From Roseibium sp. MMSF_3544 (lineage in GTDB: Bacteria > Pseudomonadota > Alphaproteobacteria > Rhizobiales > Stappiaceae), in assembly GCF_030732845.1 (NCBI RefSeq), contig NZ_JASHKA010000025.1, forward strand, positions 1 through 64,000: 64,000 nt of DNA, given 5' to 3'. Under the pieces are notes generated by a model that searched no databases, was not told the DNA's origin, and saw nothing but the letters and a program-made list of their open reading frames with translations. The translations under genes and the position numbers were made by a program. Positions 5,493 through 64,000 of the stretch are shown piece after piece. Each line of letters starts with the position of its first letter. Within the stretch, counting starts at the first letter, position 1.

Positions 5493-6509
5493 CTAGCTAA
5501 CGCGTGAGATGCAGAACGCGACCGCATCTCCCAACGCGTCATTGTGGCTGCCGGCGGGCAATACCTCCAGCGCCTTCAACGCCTTGTCGCCGTAGTCCCT
5601 TGCACGGGCGACGGTTTCACTCAGCGCATCATATTTCTTGAGCAATTCGATCGCCTGCTCCAGGTCACCGTCTTCGATGTCATCACCTTCAAGGCAACGT
5701 TTCCAGAATGCACGATCTGCGTCCGTGCCGCGCGATACCGCGAGGACCACTGGCAGCGTAATTTTGCCTTCCCGGAAATCATCGCCAATGTCTTTTCCGA
5801 GATCGGCTGAAGATCCGCCATAATCGAGCGCATCGTCGACAAGCTGGAAGGCGTAGCCAAGCTCCATGCCATAGGTACGCGCCGCCTGTTTCATATCAGC
5901 GCCCTGCCCGGCAATAACCGGCCCGACTTCTGCCGCTGCAGCGAACAGGGCCGCAGTCTTCGCTTCGATCACACGCAAGTAGTCCGCCTCGGTGGTCGCA
6001 ATGTTCTTGGCGGCGCCCAGCTGAAGCACCTCACCTTCTGCAATCACCGCGGACGCCGTGGACAGGATCCGGAGCGCTTCCAGCGACCCGACATCGACCA
6101 TCATCTTGAACGCTTGGCCCAGCAGATAGTCGCCGACGAGCACGCTCGCCTGGTTGCCCCACAGCTTTCGCGCTGCAAGCTTGCCCCGGCGCATGTCGCT
6201 CTCGTCGACAACGTCATCATGCAGCAACGTGGCTGTGTGCATGAATTCCACGCTTGCTGCCAGCGTCACGTGGCCGGTGCCCTGATAGTTGAAGATATCG
6301 GCAAGGGCGAGTGTCAGCATCGGGCGCAGCCGTTTGCCGCCGGAAGAGATCAGGTGTTTTGCGATCTCAGGGATCAGCTCCACATTGGATCCCGCCTTGG
6401 ACAGGATCAGTTCATTCACGTCGGCCATGCCCGGGGACACAAGGTCAACAAGTGACTGTATGCTCGGACGACGCGATTGAGTGTCAGAATATGTTGCGAC
6501 AACGGCCAC
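5493..6509 (-). CDS. ispB: Long-chain all-trans polyprenyl diphosphate synthase (quinone side chain)
   Basis: Extends FPP with IPP to a long prenyl chain used for the ubiquinone tail. It has 338 residues starting at a GTG (6509) with GGGGAG upstream. The first aspartate-rich motif is LLHDDVVDESDMRRG and the second is LVDDALDYGGSSADLGKDIG. Both are of the DDxxD type with no two-residue insert, typical of long-chain trans-prenyl synthases (octa- or decaprenyl). Chain length cannot be decided from sequence alone; alphaproteobacteria commonly make the decaprenyl tail. It is clearly distinct from the GGPP-synthase-like enzyme at 58 kb, whose first motif carries the insert. Confidence 0.93.
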   Translation of the reverse strand: MAVVATYSDTQSRRPSIQSLVDLVSPGMADVNELILSKAGSNVELIPEIAKHLISSGGKRLRPMLTLALADIFNYQGTGHVTLAASVEFMHTATLLHDDVVDESDMRRGKLAARKLWGNQASVLVGDYLLGQAFKMMVDVGSLEALRILSTASAVIAEGEVLQLGAAKNIATTEADYLRVIEAKTAALFAAAAEVGPVIAGQGADMKQAARTYGMELGYAFQLVDDALDYGGSSADLGKDIGDDFREGKITLPVVLAVSRGTDADRAFWKRCLEGDDIEDGDLEQAIELLKKYDALSETVARARDYGDKALKALEVLPAGSHNDALGDAVAFCISRVS

Positions 6510-52154: not shown

Positions 52155-52580
52155 ATGTCGGGACAGCAAAACAGAGGCGGTTTTTCAGGACCGCTCCAGA
52201 CGGTCTTTCAGGATTTCATGTTCGACTGGGTGTTTGAACCGAAGAAAAGCCCGCAGGAAGTCATGGACACCTATTTCACGCCTGACTTTTCAGCGGAAAT
52301 CGACGGGCACCGCCTGTCGCGCGATGTGTTTCAAAGCCGCATCAACCGGATGCGGGAAGACGCGGACGTCGAGGAACAGGACTTCGTGGAGATGATGGAG
52401 GATGGCGACAGGCTCTTCAGTATGCATTACACGCGCGGCAAGTCGCTGGTCACCGGCCAGAAGTTCGAAACGCGTGCCATTGCTTTCTTTAATTTCGAAG
52501 GCAAACGGATCAAGAAAGCGTACTTGAACAGCGTCACGCATGGCGATCCGCGCGATGCGGATTTCGCGTCACGAAGCTAA
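52155..52580 (+). CDS. NTF2/SnoaL-like fold protein
   Basis: 141 residues with the layout of a small NTF2-like alpha+beta barrel: SPQEVMDTYFTPDFSAEIDG, LSRDVFQSRINRMREDADVE, LFSMHYTRGKSL, then AIAFFNFEGKRIKKAYLNSV. Such folds include small isomerases and orphan binding proteins. I see no active-site signature. It is alone on this strand and converges with the alpha/beta hydrolase gene. Confidence 0.75.
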   Translation: MSGQQNRGGFSGPLQTVFQDFMFDWVFEPKKSPQEVMDTYFTPDFSAEIDGHRLSRDVFQSRINRMREDADVEEQDFVEMMEDGDRLFSMHYTRGKSLVTGQKFETRAIAFFNFEGKRIKKAYLNSVTHGDPRDADFASRS

Positions 52581-52589
52581 GGCGAATTC

Positions 52590-53396
52590 TCAGCCGCTAT
52601 TGGCAGCCAGAAAGCCGGATAGAAGCTCGGCGCATTCGCTTGGATGCGTGCTGATCAGAAAGTGGCTTGCGCCTTCGACCACTTCCTGACGTGACTTTGG
52701 CAGGCCCTCGTCGAGCACGCCGCTGATCACCACCATTGCCGGGTTGGCAAGTCCACCACGCACGATCAGGACAGGTATGCCCAAGCGCGAGAGATCTTGT
52801 CGCGTGAGCGTAAATCCGAAGCAGGTGTGCCAGTCCAACACGTTTGCAGCCGCCGTTTGCCTGCAATAGTCCTGAACACTCTCAGGAAGCGCTGCAAACG
52901 AGCCGGTGCCACCCCAGAAGTCGATAATGCGCGCAGCCGCATCCCGCTCGCCTGCGTCATGTGCCTCTTCAAAGTCGGCCGCCATGCGCTGAACGCTTTC
53001 ATACAGGTCGATGTCACCATGCTCGCGCATGAGATTGAGTGGATTGGCCTCGAAGGTCGCGAGACTGCGCACATCGATCCGGCCGCTTAATGCCGCCGCC
53101 AGCGCAACCGTCCCGCCGAAGGAATGCCCGACGAGATGAATTGGCGAACCGATCCTTTGAGCAGCCATTTCGATCACGGCCACTTCGTGCGCGATATCAA
53201 AATCGTCGCCACTTCGCGTTTCTGAAGTTTCCCCATACCCGCAAATACTGGTGCCGATGCAGCGATACCCATCGGGCAGACATTTCTGCATGGACCGCCA
53301 GGCAACGGACGTGCTGAAAGAACCCGGCACGAAGAGAACCGGGGCTCCGGATCCAGTTTCGTAATACTCAATTTTCCGGTCAGGACTGTCGGTCAC
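52590..53396 (-). CDS. Alpha/beta-fold hydrolase
   Basis: 268 residues starting at GTG 53396. The oxyanion/HG-type strand GSGAPVLFVPGSFSTSVAWR, the nucleophile elbow LVGHSFGGTVALAAAL with Ser near residue 91, the acid region PVLIVRGGLANPAMVVISGV, and a histidine in VEGASHFLISTHPSE near residue 245 complete the triad. No signal peptide. The substrate is unknown; short-chain esters or lactones are typical. Confidence 0.9.
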   Translation of the reverse strand: MTDSPDRKIEYYETGSGAPVLFVPGSFSTSVAWRSMQKCLPDGYRCIGTSICGYGETSETRSGDDFDIAHEVAVIEMAAQRIGSPIHLVGHSFGGTVALAAALSGRIDVRSLATFEANPLNLMREHGDIDLYESVQRMAADFEEAHDAGERDAAARIIDFWGGTGSFAALPESVQDYCRQTAAANVLDWHTCFGFTLTRQDLSRLGIPVLIVRGGLANPAMVVISGVLDEGLPKSRQEVVEGASHFLISTHPSECAELLSGFLAANSG

Positions 53397-53520
53397 ATGG
53401 GCACCGCTAACTTATGAAAAAAACTACCGAAAACTCCGGGATACGGTTGATTTTCAAGCGCCGTCATATGCTTGGCGCTGTTCTCAGGTTTCGTTTCAAG
53501 CCTACCACAATCTCATTTGG

Positions 53521-55746
53521 CTAGCTGTTCCGTGAACCGGGCCCCACGCGCTCAGCGCCGCTCCGCTCCTGCTTGGCGATCAGGCTCGGCAGCAGCAAGA
53601 GGTCGCCGAGAAGAGCCGCCAGGAAGGTTACGATGAGCAACATGCCGAACAGCTTCACCGTGAAAAATGCGCTCGCAAGCGTGACCGCGAGCCCGGAGCA
53701 GATCAGGACGGTTGTGATGATCATCGCCTGGCCGGTTTCGGCGATCGTCGCTTCCAGAGCCTGTTGCTGTGTGTCCTGTTTCTTCTTTTCCAACGAATAC
53801 CGATTGATGAAATGAATTGAGTTATCGACCGCTATTCCAAAGGCGATCGTCACTGCCAGCAGCGCTGCCGGTGTCAACTGACCTTCATTGATGATGTGAA
53901 GGGCCGCGATCGCAATGGCGACCGGCAGGAGATTGGGCAACAGCAATATGCGAACAAGACCGAAGGAACGGTAGTAGGCGGCAATGACCAGCACCGTTGC
54001 CAGACAGGCCGCAGCAAGACCGAATGCATGTTGCCTGACAAGATCCAGCGTGTCGTAGCGCATGATCATCGGCTGCCCGACAATGGCGGCATTCGATGCA
54101 CCCCTCACAGCCTCTTCCAGCGTGTCCTGCGCTGCGAGCATCCGCCTGTCAAACATCGGCTCCGGAACGAGCGTCATGACCCGCGCGATCTTCCCGTCAG
54201 GAGACAGGAAAACGTCTTTTGTATCCGACGGCCAGTTCTCGATGTCCTCGCGCGAAGGCAGGCGATCCGGGCGATCGAGCCACTTGGCCAGCGACACAAG
54301 CGACAGGTTGGTGGCGTGAGGCGACGCCGTTTCGATGACGCTGACCAAGTTAACCAAACGCTGCCAGTCGTCGGGTGCTTCAAACCCCTGTTCATTTTGC
54401 GCCTCGAGCTCGAACCACAGCGGGTAAAAACCTCCGAAATCCTTTGTGATCACCTCGTTGACGTTCCTCATCGCACTGGTCGCGGGCAAGTTGTCGTCCA
54501 TCTTGAACCAGGGTTCGACCGTGATCAGTCCAATGACAGCGGCGACGGAAATCAGGTAGCTGAGTAACCTGATGGCGCGGGATTTCGTCGCAATCAGAGA
54601 GATAAGGCTTGGCGGCAAGGCAAATCGGATAGAAATGCGTTGTCCAGCTTCAAGTGGCCAAAGTCTGGGCGCCAGCAGACAGAAAACGGCCATGGCGACA
54701 ACATACCCGACAAGCACCGACGCAGCCCCGAGCAGTGCCATTTCTCTTGTTTGCGCATTGTCGGTCATTGCGATCATGAAAAAGGCAATCGATGTCGTGA
54801 CGCCCGTCAGCGCACAGGCAGGTCCGACTTCCAGGTAGGTCTTTCGGACGCGTTCCATCGTCCCGCTGACACCCGTCCTGTTTTGCATGTTCAAGATCAG
54901 ATGGACAGCATCTGCGAGCGCCAACACCATCACCAACAGCGGAATTGCGTTGTTCAAAACAGTGATTTTCAATCCGAGGAGAAAGAACAATGCCAGCGAG
55001 AAATAGGCAGCGCAAAACGCCGGAACAACAGTCAAGGCTACCAGCCGCAGATTGCCGAGCACCAGCCAGGCAACAACCAGGGCAACAACCGCAGCAGCGG
55101 AGTTGAACACAAGCAAATCCGTCTGAAGCGCCCGGACCATTTCCGGGCCGATCGTCTGGGCACCTGTCACGTCGATGCTGTAACCGCCCAATGATGCCCG
55201 GTCAGCGACTTGCCTGAATTCAGACAGGAGACCATCCGTAAAGCCACCCCGAAGTCCGATGGCAAAGAGCGCCGTTCTCCTGTCGGGCGAGAGTGCGAGC
55301 CGGGGCTGAAGTCCAAGGTTTTCATAGGCGGCTGCCCTCTCCTCAATCGCATCCAGGTCCAGTTCAAAAGGCAAAACCGGTTCGTCCGGGTAGATCTGAT
55401 GCCAAGAAGGAAACCTGGCAGATGCAACAGAAACGACGGTAGCGACCTCTTCGATAAGCGCGAAGTCAAACTGCATTTCCTGAAGCGCACCGTAGCCGTC
55501 CGCATCAAAGGGCTCGGGTGAACGGACAACGACAAGAATTGGGGGCGAGACCCCTTCATTGGATTGCAAGAAGTCGAAATAAGCCTCGGCATGTCCGCTG
55601 CCTGACGAAAAGCTCGCCGTGATATCGTCTTCAAATCGAAGCTGCAGGACGGAAACAAACATCAGCCCGGACAGGACCAGAAGCACGAAAAGAGACAGGA
55701 GCGGCCGCGACAGAGTAAAAAGTCCTGGCCACAACAAAACCCGCAC
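53521..55746 (-). CDS. MMPL/RND-family export permease
   Basis: 741 residues from GTG 55746 (AAGGAGGGGGC upstream) with about 12 helices in two RND-like halves, each followed by a periplasmic loop. Typical segments are VMVLALADAVHLILNMQNRT, and in the second half VTIAFGIAVDNSIHFINRYS. This subgroup includes lipid, hopanoid and polyketide exporters. No MFP or outer-membrane gene is adjacent. It precedes the isoprenoid-like locus but is transcribed away from it. Confidence 0.9.
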   Translation of the reverse strand: MRVLLWPGLFTLSRPLLSLFVLLVLSGLMFVSVLQLRFEDDITASFSSGSGHAEAYFDFLQSNEGVSPPILVVVRSPEPFDADGYGALQEMQFDFALIEEVATVVSVASARFPSWHQIYPDEPVLPFELDLDAIEERAAAYENLGLQPRLALSPDRRTALFAIGLRGGFTDGLLSEFRQVADRASLGGYSIDVTGAQTIGPEMVRALQTDLLVFNSAAAVVALVVAWLVLGNLRLVALTVVPAFCAAYFSLALFFLLGLKITVLNNAIPLLVMVLALADAVHLILNMQNRTGVSGTMERVRKTYLEVGPACALTGVTTSIAFFMIAMTDNAQTREMALLGAASVLVGYVVAMAVFCLLAPRLWPLEAGQRISIRFALPPSLISLIATKSRAIRLLSYLISVAAVIGLITVEPWFKMDDNLPATSAMRNVNEVITKDFGGFYPLWFELEAQNEQGFEAPDDWQRLVNLVSVIETASPHATNLSLVSLAKWLDRPDRLPSREDIENWPSDTKDVFLSPDGKIARVMTLVPEPMFDRRMLAAQDTLEEAVRGASNAAIVGQPMIMRYDTLDLVRQHAFGLAAACLATVLVIAAYYRSFGLVRILLLPNLLPVAIAIAALHIINEGQLTPAALLAVTIAFGIAVDNSIHFINRYSLEKKKQDTQQQALEATIAETGQAMIITTVLICSGLAVTLASAFFTVKLFGMLLIVTFLAALLGDLLLLPSLIAKQERSGAERVGPGSRNS

Positions 55747-55958
55747 TGCCCCCTCCTTTATCGCCTAAAACAGCCCGCACCCATGATGCTATGTTTCAAA
55801 ATTCGCCAAGTATATGCACGCCTCACGTAAAGTGATGCTACAGTTTGTCAGAATTCATGGAGTATAAAAGGCTATCTGCATGACATTTCTGCCATAGCCA
55901 CGCTTTTCTTGAACGGTTTTTAACAGAGGCGCTGGTTCGCCGATCGGAGGTTATACAG

Positions 55959-56465
55959 TTGCTGGCAAGAATTTTTATCGCAGCAGTTGCTCTCCCCCTA
56001 GTCCTGTTGCCGGCCCAAGCGGACACGTTGCTTGCCGACCTTTCGGGAAACTGGACCGGCCGCGGATGGGCGAAACAAAGCCTGGAAGCACCGAAGGAAG
56101 CTGTCTTCTGCCGTATTCGCAATGCGCTTTCGAAAGACAAGAGCGAACTTAAGACGACCGGCAGATGCGCTGTTGCGAACAAGACATTCACGCTGGACGG
56201 TCTTATTGCTGTTTCAGCTTCATCGAACCGTGTCACGGGACGTTGGCGGGTCCCTCGCGGTGGAGGCGATGCGGCTATTTCCGGCCGAAAGGATGCAAAC
56301 CAGATTAGTTTCACCTTTGAGGCAAAGGAAACAAGCACGAAACAGAAGCTGGAGCACAGAGCAAAGTGGTCGCTTCGCGGTGCTGCGTTGACCTTGACGG
56401 CAAGTGCCAGACCCCCTTCGAACGGCTCTTTCGTTGAATTGAGCTCCGTTCAGTTCAAGAAATGA
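55959..56465 (+). CDS. Small exported protein, uncharacterised
   Basis: 168 residues from TTG 55959 with GGAGG eight bases upstream. A signal peptide (IFIAAVALPLVLLPAQA) precedes a beta-rich domain (DTLLADLSGNWTGRGWAKQS, then SVTASSNRVTGRWR-like strands), weakly lipocalin-like. I do not recognise the family. It lies about 200 bp before the FAD enzyme on the same strand. Confidence 0.72.
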   Translation: MLARIFIAAVALPLVLLPAQADTLLADLSGNWTGRGWAKQSLEAPKEAVFCRIRNALSKDKSELKTTGRCAVANKTFTLDGLIAVSASSNRVTGRWRVPRGGGDAAISGRKDANQISFTFEAKETSTKQKLEHRAKWSLRGAALTLTASARPPSNGSFVELSSVQFKK

Positions 56466-56661
56466 GTATTTGAAGCAATTGTTTCAGCATAACTAGAAGT
56501 CGTAAAGTTGCCTGAGTACTATTTCTAGAAGATGCCCCAGCTGAAAAACTCCAATTAGGGTTCACTTTGACATTCTAATGATCGTTTTTAATGGACTGAT
56601 CTCGGTATATTTGATCAAATAATTGCCAAGCATTGTTTTTTGTTTTCATCGGACTTCCCTA

Positions 56662-58092
56662 ATGAGGACGCCGGCAAATAATTCCGCATCAGTATTTCCA
56701 ACGTCATGCGCGACCGTTATTGGCGGAGGCATAGCTGGTTTGCTTGCAGCCAGGGTGCTTGCCGACGTCTTTGACCAAGTCACGATTTTCGACCGCGACA
56801 GTTTTCCGCAAAGCCCAAAGGGCCGGCCGGGCACGCCGCAGTCCGCCCATGGGCACATTCTGCTCGTCGGCGGTGTCAGGGCAATTGTTGATCTGTTTCC
56901 CGGCATCATGGAACAACTCATTGAAGCTGGAGCGATACCGGGCGATGCGTGCCGCGACGCAATCGTCAATGTTCGCGGAAGACGTTTGCCCAGATTTTCG
57001 TCTGACCTGAAGGGTCTGCTCCTGAGCCGTAACCTGCTTGAGTGGCAAATCCGCCGACGTGTTGCGGCACTCGGCAATGTAACCTTCCGCGAACGCAGCA
57101 GGGTGACCGGCTTCTTGTATGACGAAGCCGGCTCAAGGGTTTCCGGAATTTCCATTTCCGGCCCGGAAAACAGACCTGAGGAAATCCATTCAGATCTTGT
57201 CGTGGACACCAGCGGCCAGCGATCGGTGGCCTCGCATTGGCTAAGAGACCGGCAGATCAAGGTTCCCGAATTGGTCGTCGACGCCCATGTCGGATACGCC
57301 TCTCGCCGTTTTGAACGCCCTGCGGTCTGGAAAGAAGACTGGAAAGTTGCCGCGATCTCCTGGTTTCCGCCGAAAAACCGCTGTGCTGGTGGAATCTACC
57401 CTGAGGAAAACGGCATTTGGATTGCGAGCCTGGTTGGTGCTTTGGACGGCCGGCCCTCCACGGACGAAAACGGGTTTCTGGAGCACGTCCGGAAACTGGA
57501 AGACCCGGCACTGCTTGAGCACATCCGGCAAAGCAAGCCGGTTTCCAACATTGTCGGATACCGGATGCAAGGGAGCCGCAAGAGGTCCTTCAGCAATCTG
57601 TCGCGCAAGCTGGATGGTCTGCTCGTTCTGGGCGATGCACTTTGCACGGTGAACCCCTTCTACGGTCAAGGCATGACGATCGCGGCCCTGCAGGCTCAGA
57701 AGATCAAACAGGAACTCGCCGGCAGAAATTTAAGGGACCGACAGTCGTTGCGGCGGGCAATCCGTTCTGCACAAAAGGCGTGCGAACGCATGCTGACGGT
57801 GCCTTGGCTCTTCTCAACGACCGAAGACCTTAGGCACGGACACCGCGTAGACGGACGCCGCACGATCCTGCACCGGATCACCAGCTGGTATGTCGATCGG
57901 GCGATCAGGGTGCAGAGCCAACGTACGATCACCGCACTTTATCGAACGATGGGGATGGTCGACAACTATGCCCTGCTTCGCCTGCCGGTCTTGCTGGACG
58001 TATTGACGAAGCCCGTTTCCATTCGACTCAAAACACTTTTCAACAAGGGAAGGCAGCGGGAATCCACCGCTGCCGGAGCACACAATGATTGA
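56662..58092 (+). CDS. FAD-dependent epoxidase/monooxygenase-like enzyme
   Basis: About 476 residues from ATG 56662; the frame opens 13 codons earlier at a TTG. Rossmann FAD loop ATVIGGGIAGLLAARVLADV is at the N-terminus; GHILLVGGVRAIVDLFPGIM and the substrate-side strand GIYPEENGIWIASLVGALDG follow; the second FAD motif is LVLGDALCTVNPFYGQGMTI near residue 325. It resembles group A flavin monooxygenases including prenyl epoxidases. It overlaps the GGPP-synthase-like gene by 8 bp, so the two are coupled. Substrate is inferred to be a prenyl compound. Confidence 0.82.
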   Translation: MRTPANNSASVFPTSCATVIGGGIAGLLAARVLADVFDQVTIFDRDSFPQSPKGRPGTPQSAHGHILLVGGVRAIVDLFPGIMEQLIEAGAIPGDACRDAIVNVRGRRLPRFSSDLKGLLLSRNLLEWQIRRRVAALGNVTFRERSRVTGFLYDEAGSRVSGISISGPENRPEEIHSDLVVDTSGQRSVASHWLRDRQIKVPELVVDAHVGYASRRFERPAVWKEDWKVAAISWFPPKNRCAGGIYPEENGIWIASLVGALDGRPSTDENGFLEHVRKLEDPALLEHIRQSKPVSNIVGYRMQGSRKRSFSNLSRKLDGLLVLGDALCTVNPFYGQGMTIAALQAQKIKQELAGRNLRDRQSLRRAIRSAQKACERMLTVPWLFSTTEDLRHGHRVDGRRTILHRITSWYVDRAIRVQSQRTITALYRTMGMVDNYALLRLPVLLDVLTKPVSIRLKTLFNKGRQRESTAAGAHND

Positions 58093-58966
58093 CGAGGAAA
58101 TTGATTACAAATCGGAAAAAGCGGAGGTCAGAGACTCGGTCGAACACTATCTTGAGCAACGGTTTCTCCGCTATCCGGACACGGAAGTTCGGCAGGTTGC
58201 ACAATATGTCGCGTTGGGAGGCGGTCATCGCTGGAGGCCGATCGTCGCCGTTGCCTCCGGACGGATTTTCCATCGGGACGCCCTCAAGATCGGATTGCCC
58301 GGCGCATGCGGCGTGGAACTCGCGCACGCCGCCTCGCTGATACTCGACGACCTGCCCTCGATGGACGACGCGGCCCTGCGTCGCGGCAAACCCTGCGCCC
58401 ACCTTGTTTTTCCGCGATGGGCGGTCGACATGGCTCCGGTGTTTCTGGTGACCATGGCCTATGACATCAGCTTGAACAACGAACGTGTACCGGAGGAACG
58501 ACGCGTCCGGGCAGCCCTCAGCCTCAGCAGCGCAGGCCTAGCCATGATCGAAGGCCAGTGCCTCGATCTCGCCAGCGATGTCCTGGATGGCTCCTCGGAT
58601 GGATTGCTGGACTGCTACACACTGAAAAGCGCTGCGCTTTACGGTGCCGCAGCGCGCGCCGGTGCGATCATCTGCGGCGCAGATCACGAGGACGCCGACC
58701 GGCTGGAGAGGACCGGCCATTATCTCGGATTGTCATACCAGTTCATGGACGATGTTGCCGACGTCACCGCAACCGCCGACCAAGTCGGCAAGGAAGTGGG
58801 CAAGGATCTGGGCAAATTTACATCGACGGACTGGCTCGGCGTAAACGGCGCGGTGGAAAAAAGCCGGACCTACCAGACGCTTGCGCTGAAGGAACTGAAG
58901 AAATTCGGACCGGAAGCCGACTGGCTGCGAAGCATCGTTTGCGAGGCGAGCTGGGCCACACACTAG
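58085..58966 (+). CDS. Geranylgeranyl/farnesyl diphosphate synthase-like enzyme
   Basis: 293 residues. Short-chain trans-prenyl synthase: ALGGGHRWRPIVAVASGRIF, the first Asp-rich motif ELAHAASLILDDLPSMDDAA (DDxxxxD type with the two-residue insert of bacterial FPP/GGPP synthases), and the second LSYQFMDDVADVTATADQVG with KDLGK. The AASLILDD context is closer to CrtE-type GGPP synthases. No carotenoid genes are near. The stop codon TAG lies inside the CTAG at the left end of the insertion element remnant. Confidence 0.9.
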   Translation: MIDEEIDYKSEKAEVRDSVEHYLEQRFLRYPDTEVRQVAQYVALGGGHRWRPIVAVASGRIFHRDALKIGLPGACGVELAHAASLILDDLPSMDDAALRRGKPCAHLVFPRWAVDMAPVFLVTMAYDISLNNERVPEERRVRAALSLSSAGLAMIEGQCLDLASDVLDGSSDGLLDCYTLKSAALYGAAARAGAIICGADHEDADRLERTGHYLGLSYQFMDDVADVTATADQVGKEVGKDLGKFTSTDWLGVNGAVEKSRTYQTLALKELKKFGPEADWLRSIVCEASWATH

Positions 58967-59112
58967 GGTTCGGACCCATAAATGAAGCCGATTTGGCGGC
59001 AGAAATGGCAAAATCTCGGGAGGAAGCGTGTGCAGAGCGGGCTTTATGCCCGGTCAAGCACGGTGACTCTGCGAGGTACAGCCATTTTGCCGTCCTTCGG
59101 ATTTGGCCGTTT
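58963..59112. mobile_element. Truncated copy of the short insertion element
   Basis: Left end (about 150 bp) of the same element as at 8158-8427, in the same orientation, about 90% identical with one indel. Similarity begins exactly at CTAGGGTTCGGACCC and stops abruptly after GGATTTGGCCGTTT; the right terminal repeat is absent. The CTAG includes the stop codon of the prenyl synthase gene. It separates that gene from the convergent P450 gene. Confidence 0.85.
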
Positions 59113-59159
59113 AAGAGCCCTTTTGAAGACTACGGAGCCACTTGATGGAGCCAATACGG

Positions 59160-60446
59160 CTATCTGGCTTGCACGCCCTTGAACGGCATCAGGTTCGCAC
59201 CGCGCAGCAGCAGCGATTTGCGCCATGTTGTGCTTTTCTGGTCAATCTCGAACGCTGAAAACCTTTCCAGCAGAGCGGTGAGCCCAACGCGCAAAACCAG
59301 CCGTGTCAGCGCAGCGCCGAGGCAGAAATGCATGCCATATCCGAATGTCAGAGGCTGCGGATCCTTGCGATCAAGTTGAAGCCGGTCAGGGTCCGCGTAG
59401 CGTCGTGGATCCCGGTTTGCGGCAACGATCTGAATCATGAGATTTGAGCCACTTGGGATCGTCTTGCCGCCAATCTTTAGGTCACTGACAGTGGTGCGCG
59501 GCGCAAATTTTACAGATGTGTCGAAGCGGCAGAACTCTTCGATCGCATTTGGCCAAAGACCGGACTGTTTGCGCAGCAATTCCTGCTGATCCGGAAACCG
59601 CGACAGCGCAAAAACGGAATTGGCGAGCAATCCTCCTGTCGTTTGCGAGCCCGCGCCCAGCATCATGATCGCCATGGTGATGATTTCCTTGCGGTTCAGC
59701 TTTTGGTCTTCCACCTGCAGCATTGCGCTGAGGAGATCCTGTTGCGGGTGCTGTTTGCGCCTGTCACAGAGAGTTTCGAAATACGCGAATAATTCATCGA
59801 TTGCGCCGCTGACAATCTCCGGATCGAACCGCAGGAGTGGATCAAGCAACTGCACGATCACATTCGTCATTTCCTGCGACCAACCCCAATCTTCCTTTGG
59901 AATTCCAATCAGGCTGGCAACTGCTGCATTGGCGAGGGGCGTCGCATAATCGCGCACCAGATCGGCATTCGGGTTCTGTGCCAAATGTGCCAGGCGATCC
60001 TCGGCGACCTCTTTGATGCGCGCTTCAAGCCGCTCTGTCCTGCTGGGTGTGAACTCTCTTTGGACTGCACGGCGCAAGCGGGTGTGGCTCGGTGGGTCGC
60101 TTACAAGGATGAGGTTCTGGAACGTCCACTTTGCCAGCGCAGAAAGCTCTTTGTAGGGCTTAACGCCCAGCAGAACACCAATTGGATCGCCAACAAGCAG
60201 ATCGTCGCGGGAAAAGATCTCCAGCGCTTCTTCGTACCCGGTCACAATCCAGTGGCGGTAAAGGGCGCGGTAGGTGACCGGCCCTTCCCGATGCATTGCC
60301 GCAACCGCATCAGAGGGGTCGCGGGCAAAGGTTTCGCCCAAAGGATTTCCCCACGGATCGAAAAAGAAGACGAGCTCGGCCAAAGCCGGCCGTGCGGCTA
60401 TCTTTTGAAACAGGGGATAAAGAATTTTCTCCGGAATGAGCATCAC
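59160..60446 (-). CDS. Cytochrome P450
   Basis: 428 residues (GTG 60446 or the adjacent ATG 60443). A soluble bacterial class I P450. The I-helix oxygen motif is MMLGAGSQTTGGLL, the K-helix ExxR is IEEFCRFD, and the haem-binding loop is LTFGYGMHFCLGAALTRL with the proximal Cys near residue 370. No fused reductase; electrons would come from a ferredoxin pair encoded elsewhere. It converges on the prenyl synthase/FAD enzyme genes and could oxidise their product. That link is inference from position. Confidence 0.93.
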   Translation of the reverse strand: MMLIPEKILYPLFQKIAARPALAELVFFFDPWGNPLGETFARDPSDAVAAMHREGPVTYRALYRHWIVTGYEEALEIFSRDDLLVGDPIGVLLGVKPYKELSALAKWTFQNLILVSDPPSHTRLRRAVQREFTPSRTERLEARIKEVAEDRLAHLAQNPNADLVRDYATPLANAAVASLIGIPKEDWGWSQEMTNVIVQLLDPLLRFDPEIVSGAIDELFAYFETLCDRRKQHPQQDLLSAMLQVEDQKLNRKEIITMAIMMLGAGSQTTGGLLANSVFALSRFPDQQELLRKQSGLWPNAIEEFCRFDTSVKFAPRTTVSDLKIGGKTIPSGSNLMIQIVAANRDPRRYADPDRLQLDRKDPQPLTFGYGMHFCLGAALTRLVLRVGLTALLERFSAFEIDQKSTTWRKSLLLRGANLMPFKGVQAR

Positions 60447-60735: not shown

Positions 60736-61767
60736 ATGAAGCAATCTTCGGAACAGGCGCGACGTGTCACTTTGGGAGACATTGCCCAGAGACTGGGGAT
60801 TTCGACCGCGTCCGTCTCCATGGCCTTGCGCGGCAACTCCGGTGTATCGCTCGCGACCAGGCAGCGCGTCGAAGAGGTGGCTGAGGAACTCGGTTACGTA
60901 TACGACCGCGGTGCCGCGCTGCTTCGCACCGGCCAGTCCAACACGGTTGGCATTGTTGTTGGAACGCTCTCGAACAGCTTCTTCGGCGAACTGGTAAGCG
61001 GTGTCGACGAGGTCATCGGTGAGGCGCGCAAGATATCGTTTCTTCTGAACACGCGCGAAGACCCTGATCGCCAGAGAGAACTCCTGACCCGGATGCGCGA
61101 ACAATCCGTCGACGGGCTCATCGTCTGCCCCGCCCCCGGAACAAGCAAGAACCTGCTCGAAACGGTTCGAAACTGGGGCATTCCCGTTATCCAGATGCTG
61201 CGCTCCATTTCCGACACCGAGGGCGATTTCGTCAGCGCGGATTACGAGAGCGGCATTGAAACGCTTTGCTCGCACCTCGTCCGGTTGGGACATCGCCGGA
61301 TCGCATTTCTGGGCGGTGATCTTGAACACTCTGCAACGCGTCAGCGCCTGAAAGGCTTCCGGGCCGCGCTTACCCGCGCAGATCTGCCTGCCGACACCAT
61401 CATCAAGACAGCAAATACGAGCCGCGGAGGCCGCGAAGGCGCGGCGCGCTTGCTTGCAGCCGATGATCCGCCAACGGCAATCGTCTGCTTCAACGACAGG
61501 GTCGCGCTTGGTGCCATGGCGAGCATACGGGCCGCCGGTCTTGTCCCCGGACGTGACGTCGCCGTGACCGGGTTCGACAACATCGATGCCAGCTCGGAAG
61601 CCTATCCGCCGCTCACAACGGTTGAAACGCATGGCCACGACATCGGGCGCGAGGCAGGAAATCTGTTGTTGCGGCGGATCGCCAACCCGAACATGGCCAG
61701 CGAAAGGATCATCATTCCAACACGGCTCATCATCAGGCAGTCGTGCGGAGCAACACTCACCGATTAA
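60736..61767 (+). CDS. LacI-family transcriptional regulator
   Basis: 343 residues. The N-terminal helix-turn-helix is VTLGDIAQRLGISTASVSMA with the hinge helix GVSLATRQRVEEVAEELGYV. The C-terminal part is a periplasmic-binding-like ligand domain (GIVVGTLSNSFFGELVSGVD, RIAFLGGDLEHSATRQRLKG, AIVCFNDRVALGAMASIRAA). It likely controls the TRAP operon downstream and possibly the P450. The inducer is unknown; LacI-TRAP sets usually serve sugar acids. Confidence 0.94.
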   Translation: MKQSSEQARRVTLGDIAQRLGISTASVSMALRGNSGVSLATRQRVEEVAEELGYVYDRGAALLRTGQSNTVGIVVGTLSNSFFGELVSGVDEVIGEARKISFLLNTREDPDRQRELLTRMREQSVDGLIVCPAPGTSKNLLETVRNWGIPVIQMLRSISDTEGDFVSADYESGIETLCSHLVRLGHRRIAFLGGDLEHSATRQRLKGFRAALTRADLPADTIIKTANTSRGGREGAARLLAADDPPTAIVCFNDRVALGAMASIRAAGLVPGRDVAVTGFDNIDASSEAYPPLTTVETHGHDIGREAGNLLLRRIANPNMASERIIIPTRLIIRQSCGATLTD

Positions 61768-61779
61768 GACTTCGAAGGA

Positions 61780-61819
61780 GCGGCACCGCGCCAGGCCTGA
61801 CAACCAAAGGCGGTGCCGC
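61780..61819 (+). terminator. Hairpin between lacI and dctP-like gene
   Basis: Perfect 10-bp inverted repeat GCGGCACCGC / GCGGTGCCGC with a 20-base loop, just after lacI. There is no T run, so it may act as an attenuator, processing site or weak terminator that sets different levels for regulator and transporter. Confidence 0.5.
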
Positions 61820-61869
61820 GCTTACGTACCGGGCGAAGAAGCCCGTCCACAAGCAAGGGAGGACCTAGC

Positions 61870-62874
61870 ATGAAACTCACCAAGATAGCCACATTTGCAA
61901 TTGCAGGCGCTGCACTCGCCTATGCCGCAGGCACTGCTGCGGCGGCCGACCTGACACTGCGTTTCGGTCATCTGGGCGCTGAAGACACGGCCTATCAGGC
62001 CGGTGCCGAGGAATTCAAGAAGCTCGCCGAGGAGTACTCGGACGGCGCGATCGAAGTGCAGATCTTCCCCAACGGCGTGCTGGGTGACGAAGGCCAGCTC
62101 TTCGAGCAGCAAATGGCCGGCGCCCTCGACATTTCGATCGTAAACCCGGGCAAGATCACCGATTTCGCACCAACTGCCAATATATTCACCTTCCCGTTCC
62201 TTTATCGCGATGAAGATCATTGGAACGCGGTGCTGTCCGGTGATGTCGGCCGGGACATTGCAGAGCTGATCGCCGGCGAAAGCGGTGTGAACATCATCGG
62301 TTATTTCGGCGGCGGCAAGCGTCAGGTCGTTTCCAACCGCCCGCTGAACTCGCTGGATGATCTGGCCGACATGAAGCTGCGCACAAACCCGACCGATCCG
62401 CTCATCGCGTCCTGGAGTGCGCTGGGAACGCGGCCGACCAACTTTGCCTGGAACGAGATCTACACCGGTCTCCAGCTCGGTGCGATCGACGGCCTGCTGA
62501 ACGAGGCCGAATGGATCCACCGCATGCGCTTCCACGAGGTCGCTCCGCATATCGGTCTGTCCGAACACGACATCACCGTTAGGCTGGTGACCTTCTCAGG
62601 CGCGACCTGGGACCGGATGACCGACGAACAGCGTGAAATCGTGCTGCGTGCCGGTGCCGAGGCGTCAGAACTCGCGCGTCAGGTCCAGCTTCGTCAGGAT
62701 GCCGAGGCCATGGAACTTCTGAAGAAAGAAGGCGCGACGCTCTACGAAATGGATCGCGAAAAAATGCAGGAACTCGTTCGTCCCGCCGTTCTGGAAGTGG
62801 CTGGCCGCATGGGACTGGCTGATCTTTACAGCCGCATCCAGTCAAGCGCCGGCGACGTGAGCACTGGCAACTAA
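61870..62874 (+). CDS. dctP: TRAP transporter solute-binding protein
   Basis: 334 residues from ATG 61870, with GGGAGG upstream. A signal peptide (IAGAALAYAAGTAAA) precedes a DctP-type fold: LTLRFGHLGAEDTAYQAGAE, then NGVLGDEGQLFEQQMAGALD, and the ligand-carboxylate region MKLRTNPTDPLIASWSALGT containing the conserved Arg, with NEIYTGLQLGAIDGL. It binds an organic acid, probably a sugar acid, in the periplasm and delivers it to the DctQM permease. Confidence 0.96.
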   Translation: MKLTKIATFAIAGAALAYAAGTAAAADLTLRFGHLGAEDTAYQAGAEEFKKLAEEYSDGAIEVQIFPNGVLGDEGQLFEQQMAGALDISIVNPGKITDFAPTANIFTFPFLYRDEDHWNAVLSGDVGRDIAELIAGESGVNIIGYFGGGKRQVVSNRPLNSLDDLADMKLRTNPTDPLIASWSALGTRPTNFAWNEIYTGLQLGAIDGLLNEAEWIHRMRFHEVAPHIGLSEHDITVRLVTFSGATWDRMTDEQREIVLRAGAEASELARQVQLRQDAEAMELLKKEGATLYEMDREKMQELVRPAVLEVAGRMGLADLYSRIQSSAGDVSTGN

Positions 62875-62886
62875 GCCAAAACACCT

Positions 62887-62913
62887 GGACCCGTCCTGAC
62901 AACGGGCGGGTCC
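62887..62913 (+). promoter_or_regulatory. Hairpin between dctP and dctQ
   Basis: 10-bp stem GGACCCGTCC / GGGCGGGTCC with one G-T wobble and a 7-base loop. Such stems after binding-protein genes commonly stabilise the upstream mRNA or partly terminate, giving more binding protein than permease. Confidence 0.5.
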
Positions 62914-62978
62914 GGACCATCTCAAGAACAAACGAATTCGCACGGTTCTGCCACCGCAGACCGAAGGGAGGATGCGTC

Positions 62979-63560
62979 ATGCTGCGCGGTCTCGACACCT
63001 TCAATCGCGGCCTCGAAAAGGTGCTGGAATGGGTGCTGCTGGCACTTCTGGCCTTTTTCCTGAGCCTTATTCTCTACCAGATCGTCAGCCGCAACCTGCC
63101 TGTTCTGCCCCCGATCTACTGGACGGAAGAGTTCTCACGGTTCGCCTTCCAGTGGACGATCATGCTCGGCACGGCACTCGGTGTTTATCATTCCGATCAC
63201 TTCGTCCTGGACGCCTTTCCGAAGAACTCCCGGATGGACCGGTTCACAAGGTACCTGCGCGAAATCGTGCTGGTGCTCATCGCGATCTTTTTCATCTGGT
63301 CCGGTTGGGAATTCGCCGAAACCGGCTGGCGGCGGCGTTCCACGGCTGCCCAGCTTCCGATGTTCTGGATCTATGTGTGCTTCTTCACGGCCGGTGTCGT
63401 CATGGCGCTGTTCATGCTCCAGCGCGTCCTGACCCTTCTGACCAAGGGGCTCGACAAGATGGAACTGGAGCTGAATTCGCTTCCTCCCGAAGAAATCGCG
63501 CTGCGCGAAGGCGATCTGGACCCCGACGGTCCGCTCCGCCACAAGGACGAGGATCGCTGA
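62979..63560 (+). CDS. dctQ: TRAP transporter small permease
   Basis: 193 residues with four membrane helices (VLEWVLLALLAFFLSLILYQ, TIMLGTALGVYHSDHFVLDA, LREIVLVLIAIFFIWSGWEF, VCFFTAGVVMALFMLQRVLT). The W-T-E-E-F-S-R-F-A-F-Q-W segment is typical of DctQ. A hydrophilic charged C-terminus follows. It ends one base before the dctM start. Confidence 0.93.
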   Translation: MLRGLDTFNRGLEKVLEWVLLALLAFFLSLILYQIVSRNLPVLPPIYWTEEFSRFAFQWTIMLGTALGVYHSDHFVLDAFPKNSRMDRFTRYLREIVLVLIAIFFIWSGWEFAETGWRRRSTAAQLPMFWIYVCFFTAGVVMALFMLQRVLTLLTKGLDKMELELNSLPPEEIALREGDLDPDGPLRHKDEDR

Positions 63561-63561
63561 C

Positions 63562-64000
63562 ATGCTGGGCTCTGATTTCTATTTCCTCTTCCCCTGGCTG
63601 TTGTTCGGCCTGCTGTTTCTCTACATCGCTCTCGGCATCCCGATCGCGTTCAGCCTCGTGCTGACGGCCATCACCATGGTCGTTCTCGACGATCGCGTCA
63701 CAGCCTGGGTCGTGTTCCAGCGCATGTACAACGGCATGGACAGTTTCGTGCTTCTTGCGGTTCCGATCTTCCTTCTCGCCGGCAACCTCATCAACAAGGC
63801 GGAGGTAACCGACAAACTCATAAGGTTCGCCTTGAACATTTTCGGACGTTTCAGAGGCGCGCTTGCCAATGTGAACGTTGCCGTATCGATCATGTTTGCA
63901 GGTGTCTCGGGATCGTCGACCGCCGATTCCGCAGGTGTCGGTGCCATCTTGATCCCGTCGATGAAGCGTGAGGGATATCCGACCCCGTTTGCGGTAGCCG
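63562..64000 (+). CDS. dctM: TRAP transporter large permease (partial)
   Basis: First 146 codons of the large permease; the gene runs off the window. The start ATG 63562 follows the dctQ stop directly. Helices FLFPWLLFGLLFLYIALGIP and SFVLLAVPIFLLAGNLINKA, and the family motif VAVSIMFAGVSGSSTADSAG, identify DctM. It forms the Na+-coupled transport channel. Confidence 0.95.
   Translation, partial: MLGSDFYFLFPWLLFGLLFLYIALGIPIAFSLVLTAITMVVLDDRVTAWVVFQRMYNGMDSFVLLAVPIFLLAGNLINKAEVTDKLIRFALNIFGRFRGALANVNVAVSIMFAGVSGSSTADSAGVGAILIPSMKREGYPTPFAVA

Follow-up and report, generated by a model that had tools for sequence, protein, structure and literature searches.

The xiamycin cluster is reportedly a bacterial meroterpenoid cluster in which a prenyl chain is epoxidised. 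According to the available part of the zigralone study (PMC13307353), the zig meroterpenoid cluster combines a prenyl synthase, P450s and prenyl-chain epoxidation, the epoxidase being a P450, and the epoxidation that primes cyclisation of prenyl chains is typically carried out by flavin monooxygenases. MonCI and Lsd18 are flavin epoxidases of polyether pathways; in the accessible sections of the work on MonCI (PMC10560226), flavin adenine dinucleotide (FAD) is held by His57, Arg37, Gly333 and Met336, the motifs RKGxPQxRHxHxLWSxGA and AFNPxxGHGMSxxA are given for polyether epoxidases, and MonCI is described as epoxidising farnesyl 4-hydroxybenzoate in vitro. For bacterial sterols, the BstA/BstB/BstC system places an RND protein and a periplasmic carrier beside isoprenoid genes, as far as the excerpt of that paper goes (PMC10942540). 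Here we analyse a stretch of 64,000 nucleotides from Roseibium sp. MMSF_3544 (contig NZ_JASHKA010000025.1, positions 1 to 64,000; the window in what follows) with five genes at positions 53521-60446, encoding an MMPL/RND transporter, a small secreted protein, a MonCI/Lsd18-like FAD enzyme, a short-chain prenyl diphosphate synthase and a cytochrome P450 (Table 1). In our estimate there is about an even chance that these genes form one dedicated cassette which makes and exports an oxygenated, and probably epoxidised, isoprenoid.

The block recurs in a second genome of the same genus, G071, where all five genes are found in identical order and orientation (MMPL on the minus strand; secreted protein, FAD enzyme and synthase on the plus strand; P450 on the minus strand). 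The flanks of the two blocks differ, and this recurrence as a unit takes the arrangement beyond chance. Identity to the G071 counterparts is 57% for the MMPL protein, 53% for the secreted protein, 56% for the FAD enzyme, 74% for the synthase and 67% for the P450. In protein searches of 87 genomes of the family, the FAD enzyme (E <= 1e-20) and the P450 (E <= 1e-100) were each found in the same two genomes, i.e. the present one and G071, the P450 lying inside the cassette both times; at these thresholds neither was found in G047, another genome of the family. The long-chain-type prenyl synthase of the present genome is 83% identical to that of G071 and 91% identical to that of G047. The five-gene block is more divergent than this one housekeeping-type protein, and it occurs patchily; either transfer or repeated loss could account for this. 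When 44 kb around the G071 block were compared with the window (E <= 1e-8, disregarding overlapping other-frame open reading frames (ORFs) of the cassette genes), few similarities appeared beyond the cassette: three G071 ORFs resembled a single ABC-ATPase-like ORF of the window, and the cassette synthase matched the window's long-chain-type synthase at 27% identity.

An earlier account of the window, drawn up before any database search (the sequence-only reading), had proposed an isoprenoid locus of three genes, namely the FAD enzyme, the prenyl synthase and the P450. These genes are real, with the coordinates, overlap and orientation that were proposed, and their motifs and Pfam domains agree; the locus was nevertheless drawn too short, as the unit has five genes and the range given omits the transporter and the secreted protein. 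The sequence-only reading had also looked to a neighbourhood conserved across the family, and had named unlinked homologues in relatives as one finding that would speak against it. In the single relative found to carry them, the genes are linked; conservation extends to just 2 of the 87 family genomes. Within the block the FAD and synthase genes overlap by 8 bp, and a gap of 193 bp separates the end of the synthase gene from the P450 gene. The FAD enzyme matches the Pfam models DAO and FAD_binding_3 at about 28 bits and carries the glycine motif GGGIAG; the synthase matches polyprenyl_synt (E 2e-38, 132.5 bits) and the P450 matches p450 (E 7e-26, 91.4 bits), with all of its motifs present, i.e. 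AGSQTT in the I-helix, EFCR as ExxR and FGYGMHFCLG around the heme cysteine. Composition gives no sign of a foreign origin, the G+C content of the cassette genes (0.55-0.60) being near that of the window (0.57). Promoter and terminator scans gave counts no different from those of shuffled sequences.

Table 1. Genes of the five-gene block in the window, and related pairs of ORFs in other genomes of the family
Feature	Position	Strand	Remarks
MMPL/RND (HAE3-like) inner-membrane transporter	53521..55746	-	741 aa; divergent from the other four genes
Small secreted protein (SEC)	55959..56465	+	168 aa; signal-like N-terminal segment; probably a calycin-type beta-barrel, by structure prediction
MonCI/Lsd18-like class A flavin monooxygenase, probable prenyl-chain epoxidase	56662..58092	+	476 aa; first position is that of the ATG start, last that of the stop codon
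Short-chain (type II) prenyl diphosphate synthase, predicted geranylgeranyl diphosphate synthase	58085..58966	+	293 aa
Cytochrome P450, bacterial type	59160..60446	-	428 aa; convergent
MMPL/secreted-protein ORF pairs	L051:9427-12242; L052:9576-12271; L053:6923-9813		three other family genomes

Among all solved structures, the best matches of the FAD enzyme are MonCI (3e-55) and Lsd18 (7e-50), at 171-191 bits. The MonCI alignment, at about 190 bits, spans residues 15-392 of 476, with 32% identity over the stretch compared, and the FAD-contact residues are kept: H65, R45, G335 and M338 correspond to His57, Arg37, Gly333 and Met336 of MonCI. In homology and predicted FAD binding the protein thus looks like a MonCI-type flavin epoxidase, in keeping with the epoxidase-like label that the sequence-only reading had given it. 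Since MonCI epoxidises farnesyl 4-hydroxybenzoate, a prenyl chain is plausible, and no more, as a substrate for a MonCI-like family. In a tree of 22 sequences the two cassette enzymes pair with full support, and a long stem leads to them; the deeper branching is weakly supported, and the MonCI branch is long. The split plasmid-borne FAD gene of L046 was excluded from this tree, and two of the 14 matches from other genomes of the class, each with one internal stop, entered it with their open frame.

The wider family was found by profile search (E <= 1e-30) in 15 of 385 genomes of the class, the present one included. In this and the other searches at the level of class, order and phylum, the best four (FAD enzyme) or six (synthase) first-look candidates per genome were scored. 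No match to the synthase, the transporter or the secreted protein was found (E <= 1e-4) around the 14 other FAD loci, of which four were covered over 10-13 kb and ten over 20 kb; at two of them (L032 and L037) a P450 with weak similarity (6e-9 and 2.5e-5) lies within 10 kb. Neighbours were listed for 8 of the 14 loci, and four neighbouring proteins at two loci were scanned. By eye, the MonCI-like FAD genes at L028 and L030, from class genomes of one genus, lie beside an apparent ATP synthase operon, an odd place for an enzyme of specialised metabolism. FAD-like proteins also occur in 137 plasmid records (E <= 1e-15), every one below 60% identity; six of these records were inspected, and the product names in the five that are annotated show no terpenoid cluster, the sixth having no annotated features. 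The synthase (E <= 1e-25) and the secreted protein (E <= 1e-3) found no match among the plasmids. Scans of genome contigs with just 6 and 2 short peptide patterns as queries returned no relative of the FAD enzyme.

The cassette synthase has the first aspartate-rich motif (FARM) DDLPSMD and the second (SARM) QFMDDVAD. The residue at position -5 relative to the FARM limits the length of the prenyl chain. It is Ala in both cassette synthases and in two carotenoid-type synthases (on contig C11 of the present genome and L064 of G059), and Tyr in four IspA types (on contig C27 of the present genome, L061 of G071, L062 of G047 and L063 of G059, the last two called so by likeness only). The FARM pattern DDxxxxD, the SARM pattern DDxxD and the small residue at -5 together agree with what is expected of a type II geranylgeranyl diphosphate (GGPP) synthase, and GGPP (C20) is the likely product, a prediction made because of a single residue, the Ala at -5. 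A profile search of the solved structures ranks the GGPP synthase 7mxz first. Against the GGPP synthase model NF045685 the cassette enzyme scores 154.3 bits, below the cut-off of 460; the synthase of the carotenoid cluster on C11 likewise fails it at 156.1 bits, and for this reason the cut-off does not discriminate here. Close relatives of the synthase are rare (E <= 1e-50 or 1e-45): in the class (1 of 385 genomes) and in the phylum (1 of 398) only the present genome was found, and in the order 2 of 397. The second order match, from the draft genome G1152 (84% complete), lies 78 bp behind xseB, the usual place of ispA, at the end of a contig. It is in two pieces in different frames (L078:8-756 on contig C182; 70% identity over 114 aa and 51% over 119 aa), which either true decay or an assembly fault would fit, and on its 16-kb contig none of the other cassette genes found a match. 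These data suggest a divergent lineage of short-chain synthases as the origin of the cassette synthase. Because the closest outside relative adjoins xseB, and is in pieces, farnesyl diphosphate (FPP) is a possible product as well.

The transporter matches the Pfam model MMPL at 85.6 bits (cut-off 20.5), and the Patched and sterol-sensing domain models also above their cut-offs; matches to the subfamily models HAE3 and HpnN stay below theirs. Thirteen hydrophobic windows, two of them overlapping, correspond to about 12 segments, so that in domain and RND-like membrane pattern the predicted protein resembles the MMPL/RND lipid exporters. The secreted protein has a hydrophobic segment at residues 1-19 and found no Pfam family above cut-off. 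Calycins are marked by a GxW motif in the first strand and a closed antiparallel barrel. A GxWxGxG motif and two cysteines are invariant in the six members of its family that were compared, and its predicted fold, of low confidence (predicted local distance difference test score, pLDDT, 49.8), is barrel-like and resembles nitrobindin and OssO. Overlapping ORFs for an MMPL protein and a secreted protein of this family occur without the three enzymes in the family genomes G001, G047 and G059 (Table 1), the overlaps being computed on the longest ORFs. In G059 (L053), the pair is preceded at a distance of 2 kb by an ORF that matches an alpha/beta-hydrolase of the window (E 2e-10).

From the gene identities, the motifs, the gene overlap, the conservation of all five genes in one relative and the separate existence of the transporter/secreted-protein pair, we infer the chemistry, the chain length, the substrate, and the direction and destination of transport of a possible pathway. 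The synthase would supply a prenyl diphosphate of short chain length, GGPP being the most likely, and the MonCI-like flavoenzyme would epoxidise the prenyl chain once or several times via a C4a-hydroperoxyflavin, acting on a free prenyl alcohol or acid, or on a small prenylated aromatic supplied by the ordinary cellular UbiA. The P450 may then hydroxylate the product, the MMPL/RND transporter may move the hydrophobic compound out of the inner membrane, and the small calycin-like protein could receive it for transit or release.

Every part of this cassette is of a known kind; what it joins is a MonCI-like enzyme, a prenyl synthase and an export pair of an MMPL protein and a barrel. Like MonCI and Lsd18, its closest solved relatives, the FAD enzyme keeps the FAD-contact residues, but no polyketide synthase is present among the genes scanned at 52155-60446 and the enzyme lacks Trp60 and His334. 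As in the BstA/BstB/BstC system, at least in the portion of it described in the excerpt, an RND inner-membrane protein and a periplasmic partner stand beside isoprenoid-modifying enzymes; unlike there, the secreted partner is a small probable calycin barrel and the block has no outer-membrane component. The zig cluster, so far as its available description reaches, shares the prenyl synthase, the prenyl-chain epoxidation and the P450s, whereas its epoxidase is a P450, and the block described here has neither a UbiA-like prenyltransferase nor a recognised cyclase and adds the exporter pair. With the CrtE-type GGPP synthases the cassette synthase has in common the type II FARM, the Ala at -5 and the best solved profile match; it differs in its GGHRWRP motif, in the loss of the usual GD and in belonging to a rare lineage.

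The present genome has four matches to the prenyl synthase family, namely a long-chain type, an FPP type, the carotenoid-cluster enzyme and the cassette enzyme. The isoprenoid unit is linked, as the sequence-only reading had it, and stands apart from the other synthases of the genome. The long-chain-type polyprenyl synthase lies in the window at 5493-6509 (C17:5643; best model octaprenyl, below cut-off), the housekeeping enzyme having been rightly described as a separate gene, and a quinone role of the cassette synthase was rejected on this ground. The FPP-type synthase, on contig C27, is above the cut-off of its model. Contig C11 carries crtD, CrtB-like and CrtI-family genes beside bchX, together with a synthase of their own; L056:6089-15549 on this contig is a photosynthesis gene cluster, and BchG is encoded on the same contig. 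The statement that carotenoid genes are absent therefore stands for the window, of which it was made, and does not extend to the genome. A carotenoid role of the cassette is unlikely, as the carotenoid/photosynthesis cluster has its own synthase.

The UbiA family in G071 comprises UbiA, above the cut-off of its model, and heme O synthase, and nothing more was found; since G071 has only these housekeeping members, no dedicated UbiA-type enzyme would be needed if the cassette acts alike in both genomes. The present genome has five UbiA-family matches. The sequence starts of L069 and L072 (no model scan) resemble the heme O synthase and the UbiA of G071, L072 being near-identical to the UbiA start. 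The remaining three are BchG, an ORF on C11 that looks like a HAD-UbiA fusion, and one ORF on C4, the last two without a model assignment; the matches on C11 and C4 are on other contigs than the cassette. The fusion-like ORF (L079:354-1811, by eye) lies beside an FAD-linked-oxidase-like ORF. The class I terpene synthase model PF19086 gave no match in the present genome or G071, its control giving no match anywhere. The sequence-only reading had named two options for a locus that lacks a recognisable cyclase, a linear epoxy-diterpenoid as product or a non-canonical cyclase encoded elsewhere, and either may apply.

Several observations weigh against reading the five genes as one make-and-export cassette. 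The full block was found in two genomes only, so that linkage amounts to one comparison. Both polyether motifs are kept only partly in the FAD enzyme (RPGTPQSAHGHILLVGGV and TVNPFYGQGMTIAA). Their Trp60 and His334 occur in MonCI alone among the 22 sequences compared and are replaced in all 21 others, by Leu and Gln in the cassette pair; RPG instead of RKG is found in the two cassette enzymes only. As no match to the synthase was found in the stretches covered around the 14 outside loci, this type of flavoenzyme does not need a prenyl synthase beside it, and its substrate need not be the product of the synthase. In the synthase itself, GGHRWRP takes the place of the GGKRLRP seen in the IspA and long-chain types used for comparison (the carotenoid-cluster enzyme on C11 has GGARIRP), and the usual GD after the FARM is lost; because of these two changes its activity is not assured. 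With a single-sequence query its best solved match is the geranyltranstransferase 7lbj, and its nearest outside relative stands beside xseB and not beside an epoxidase. Nor was an enzyme for removing the diphosphate recognised in the block, or any cyclase or prenyltransferase, Pyr4-like cyclases and soluble (aromatic) prenyltransferases not being searched for.

Other explanations have to be considered. GGPP could be diverted to the housekeeping UbiA, and the resulting geranylgeranyl-4-hydroxybenzoate could be epoxidised by the flavoenzyme, oxidised by the P450 and exported as a quinone- or benzoate-type product. The UbiA of G071 and the near-identical start of L072, the activity of MonCI on farnesyl 4-hydroxybenzoate (PMC10560226, available sections) and the typical use of flavin monooxygenases for cyclisation-priming epoxidation (PMC13307353, available part) are consistent with such a meroterpenoid. 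However, we regard it as rather unlikely, given a block with neither an aromatic-acid gene nor a dedicated prenyltransferase and a UbiA family that in G071 is limited to its two housekeeping members, soluble aromatic prenyltransferases and Pyr4-like cyclases again lying outside the search. The product may also be a structural isoprenoid lipid destined for the outer membrane and carried there much as hopanoids or sterols are, and not a released metabolite. The likeness of the transporter to HAE3 and HpnN (below cut-offs) and to Patched and the sterol-sensing domain (above cut-off) points this way, as does the BstA precedent to the extent that it is described in the excerpt (PMC10942540), but an occurrence in 2 of 87 genomes would be unusual for a structural lipid and the block has no cyclase or head-to-head condensing enzyme; on balance we find this explanation improbable.

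Two proposals concern single proteins. That the FAD enzyme reduces prenyl chains, as geranylgeranyl reductases do, and so yields a saturated isoprenoid is scarcely credible: the geranylgeranyl-reductase model TIGR02032 is indeed its best NCBIfam match, yet at 39.3 bits this is far below the cut-off of 158.8, and MonCI and Lsd18 reach 171-191 bits along most of its length. The geranylgeranyl reductase identity, which the sequence-only reading had named as a finding that would overturn it, was rejected on these scores. The secreted protein might be an epoxide-opening cyclase that forms a cyclic ether after export, a calycin-fold counterpart of OssO and OlmO; we regard this as very unlikely. In a bolder version of the cassette proposal, which we put forward as a quite unlikely speculation, a polyether-style epoxidase would have been recruited to isoprenoids, epoxidising several double bonds of a C20 prenyl chain; the poly-epoxide would be exported, and beyond the inner membrane the secreted barrel would help to open it to a terpenoid polyether, without a cyclase. 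Should the five genes indeed form one make-and-export cassette, they would represent a very small self-contained pathway of three enzymes and an export pair, with no recognised terpene cyclase, and an easy target for heterologous expression. The MonCI-like flavoenzyme family would be widened from polyketides to isoprenoids, and the MMPL protein with its small secreted barrel would be an export pair to seek beside other lipid pathways.

Directly left of the transporter gene, the window contains a SnoaL-like gene (52155-52580) and an alpha/beta-hydrolase gene (52590-53396). Both were dropped as members of the cassette, neither being matched in the 44 kb around the G071 block (E 1e-8 and 1e-3). 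To the right of the cassette, at 60736-63999, genes for a LacI-like regulator and a TRAP-like transporter were identified by eye. The regulator adjoining the P450 gene was found in 1 of 45 genomes of the genus (E <= 1e-100), so the right flank looks accessory too.

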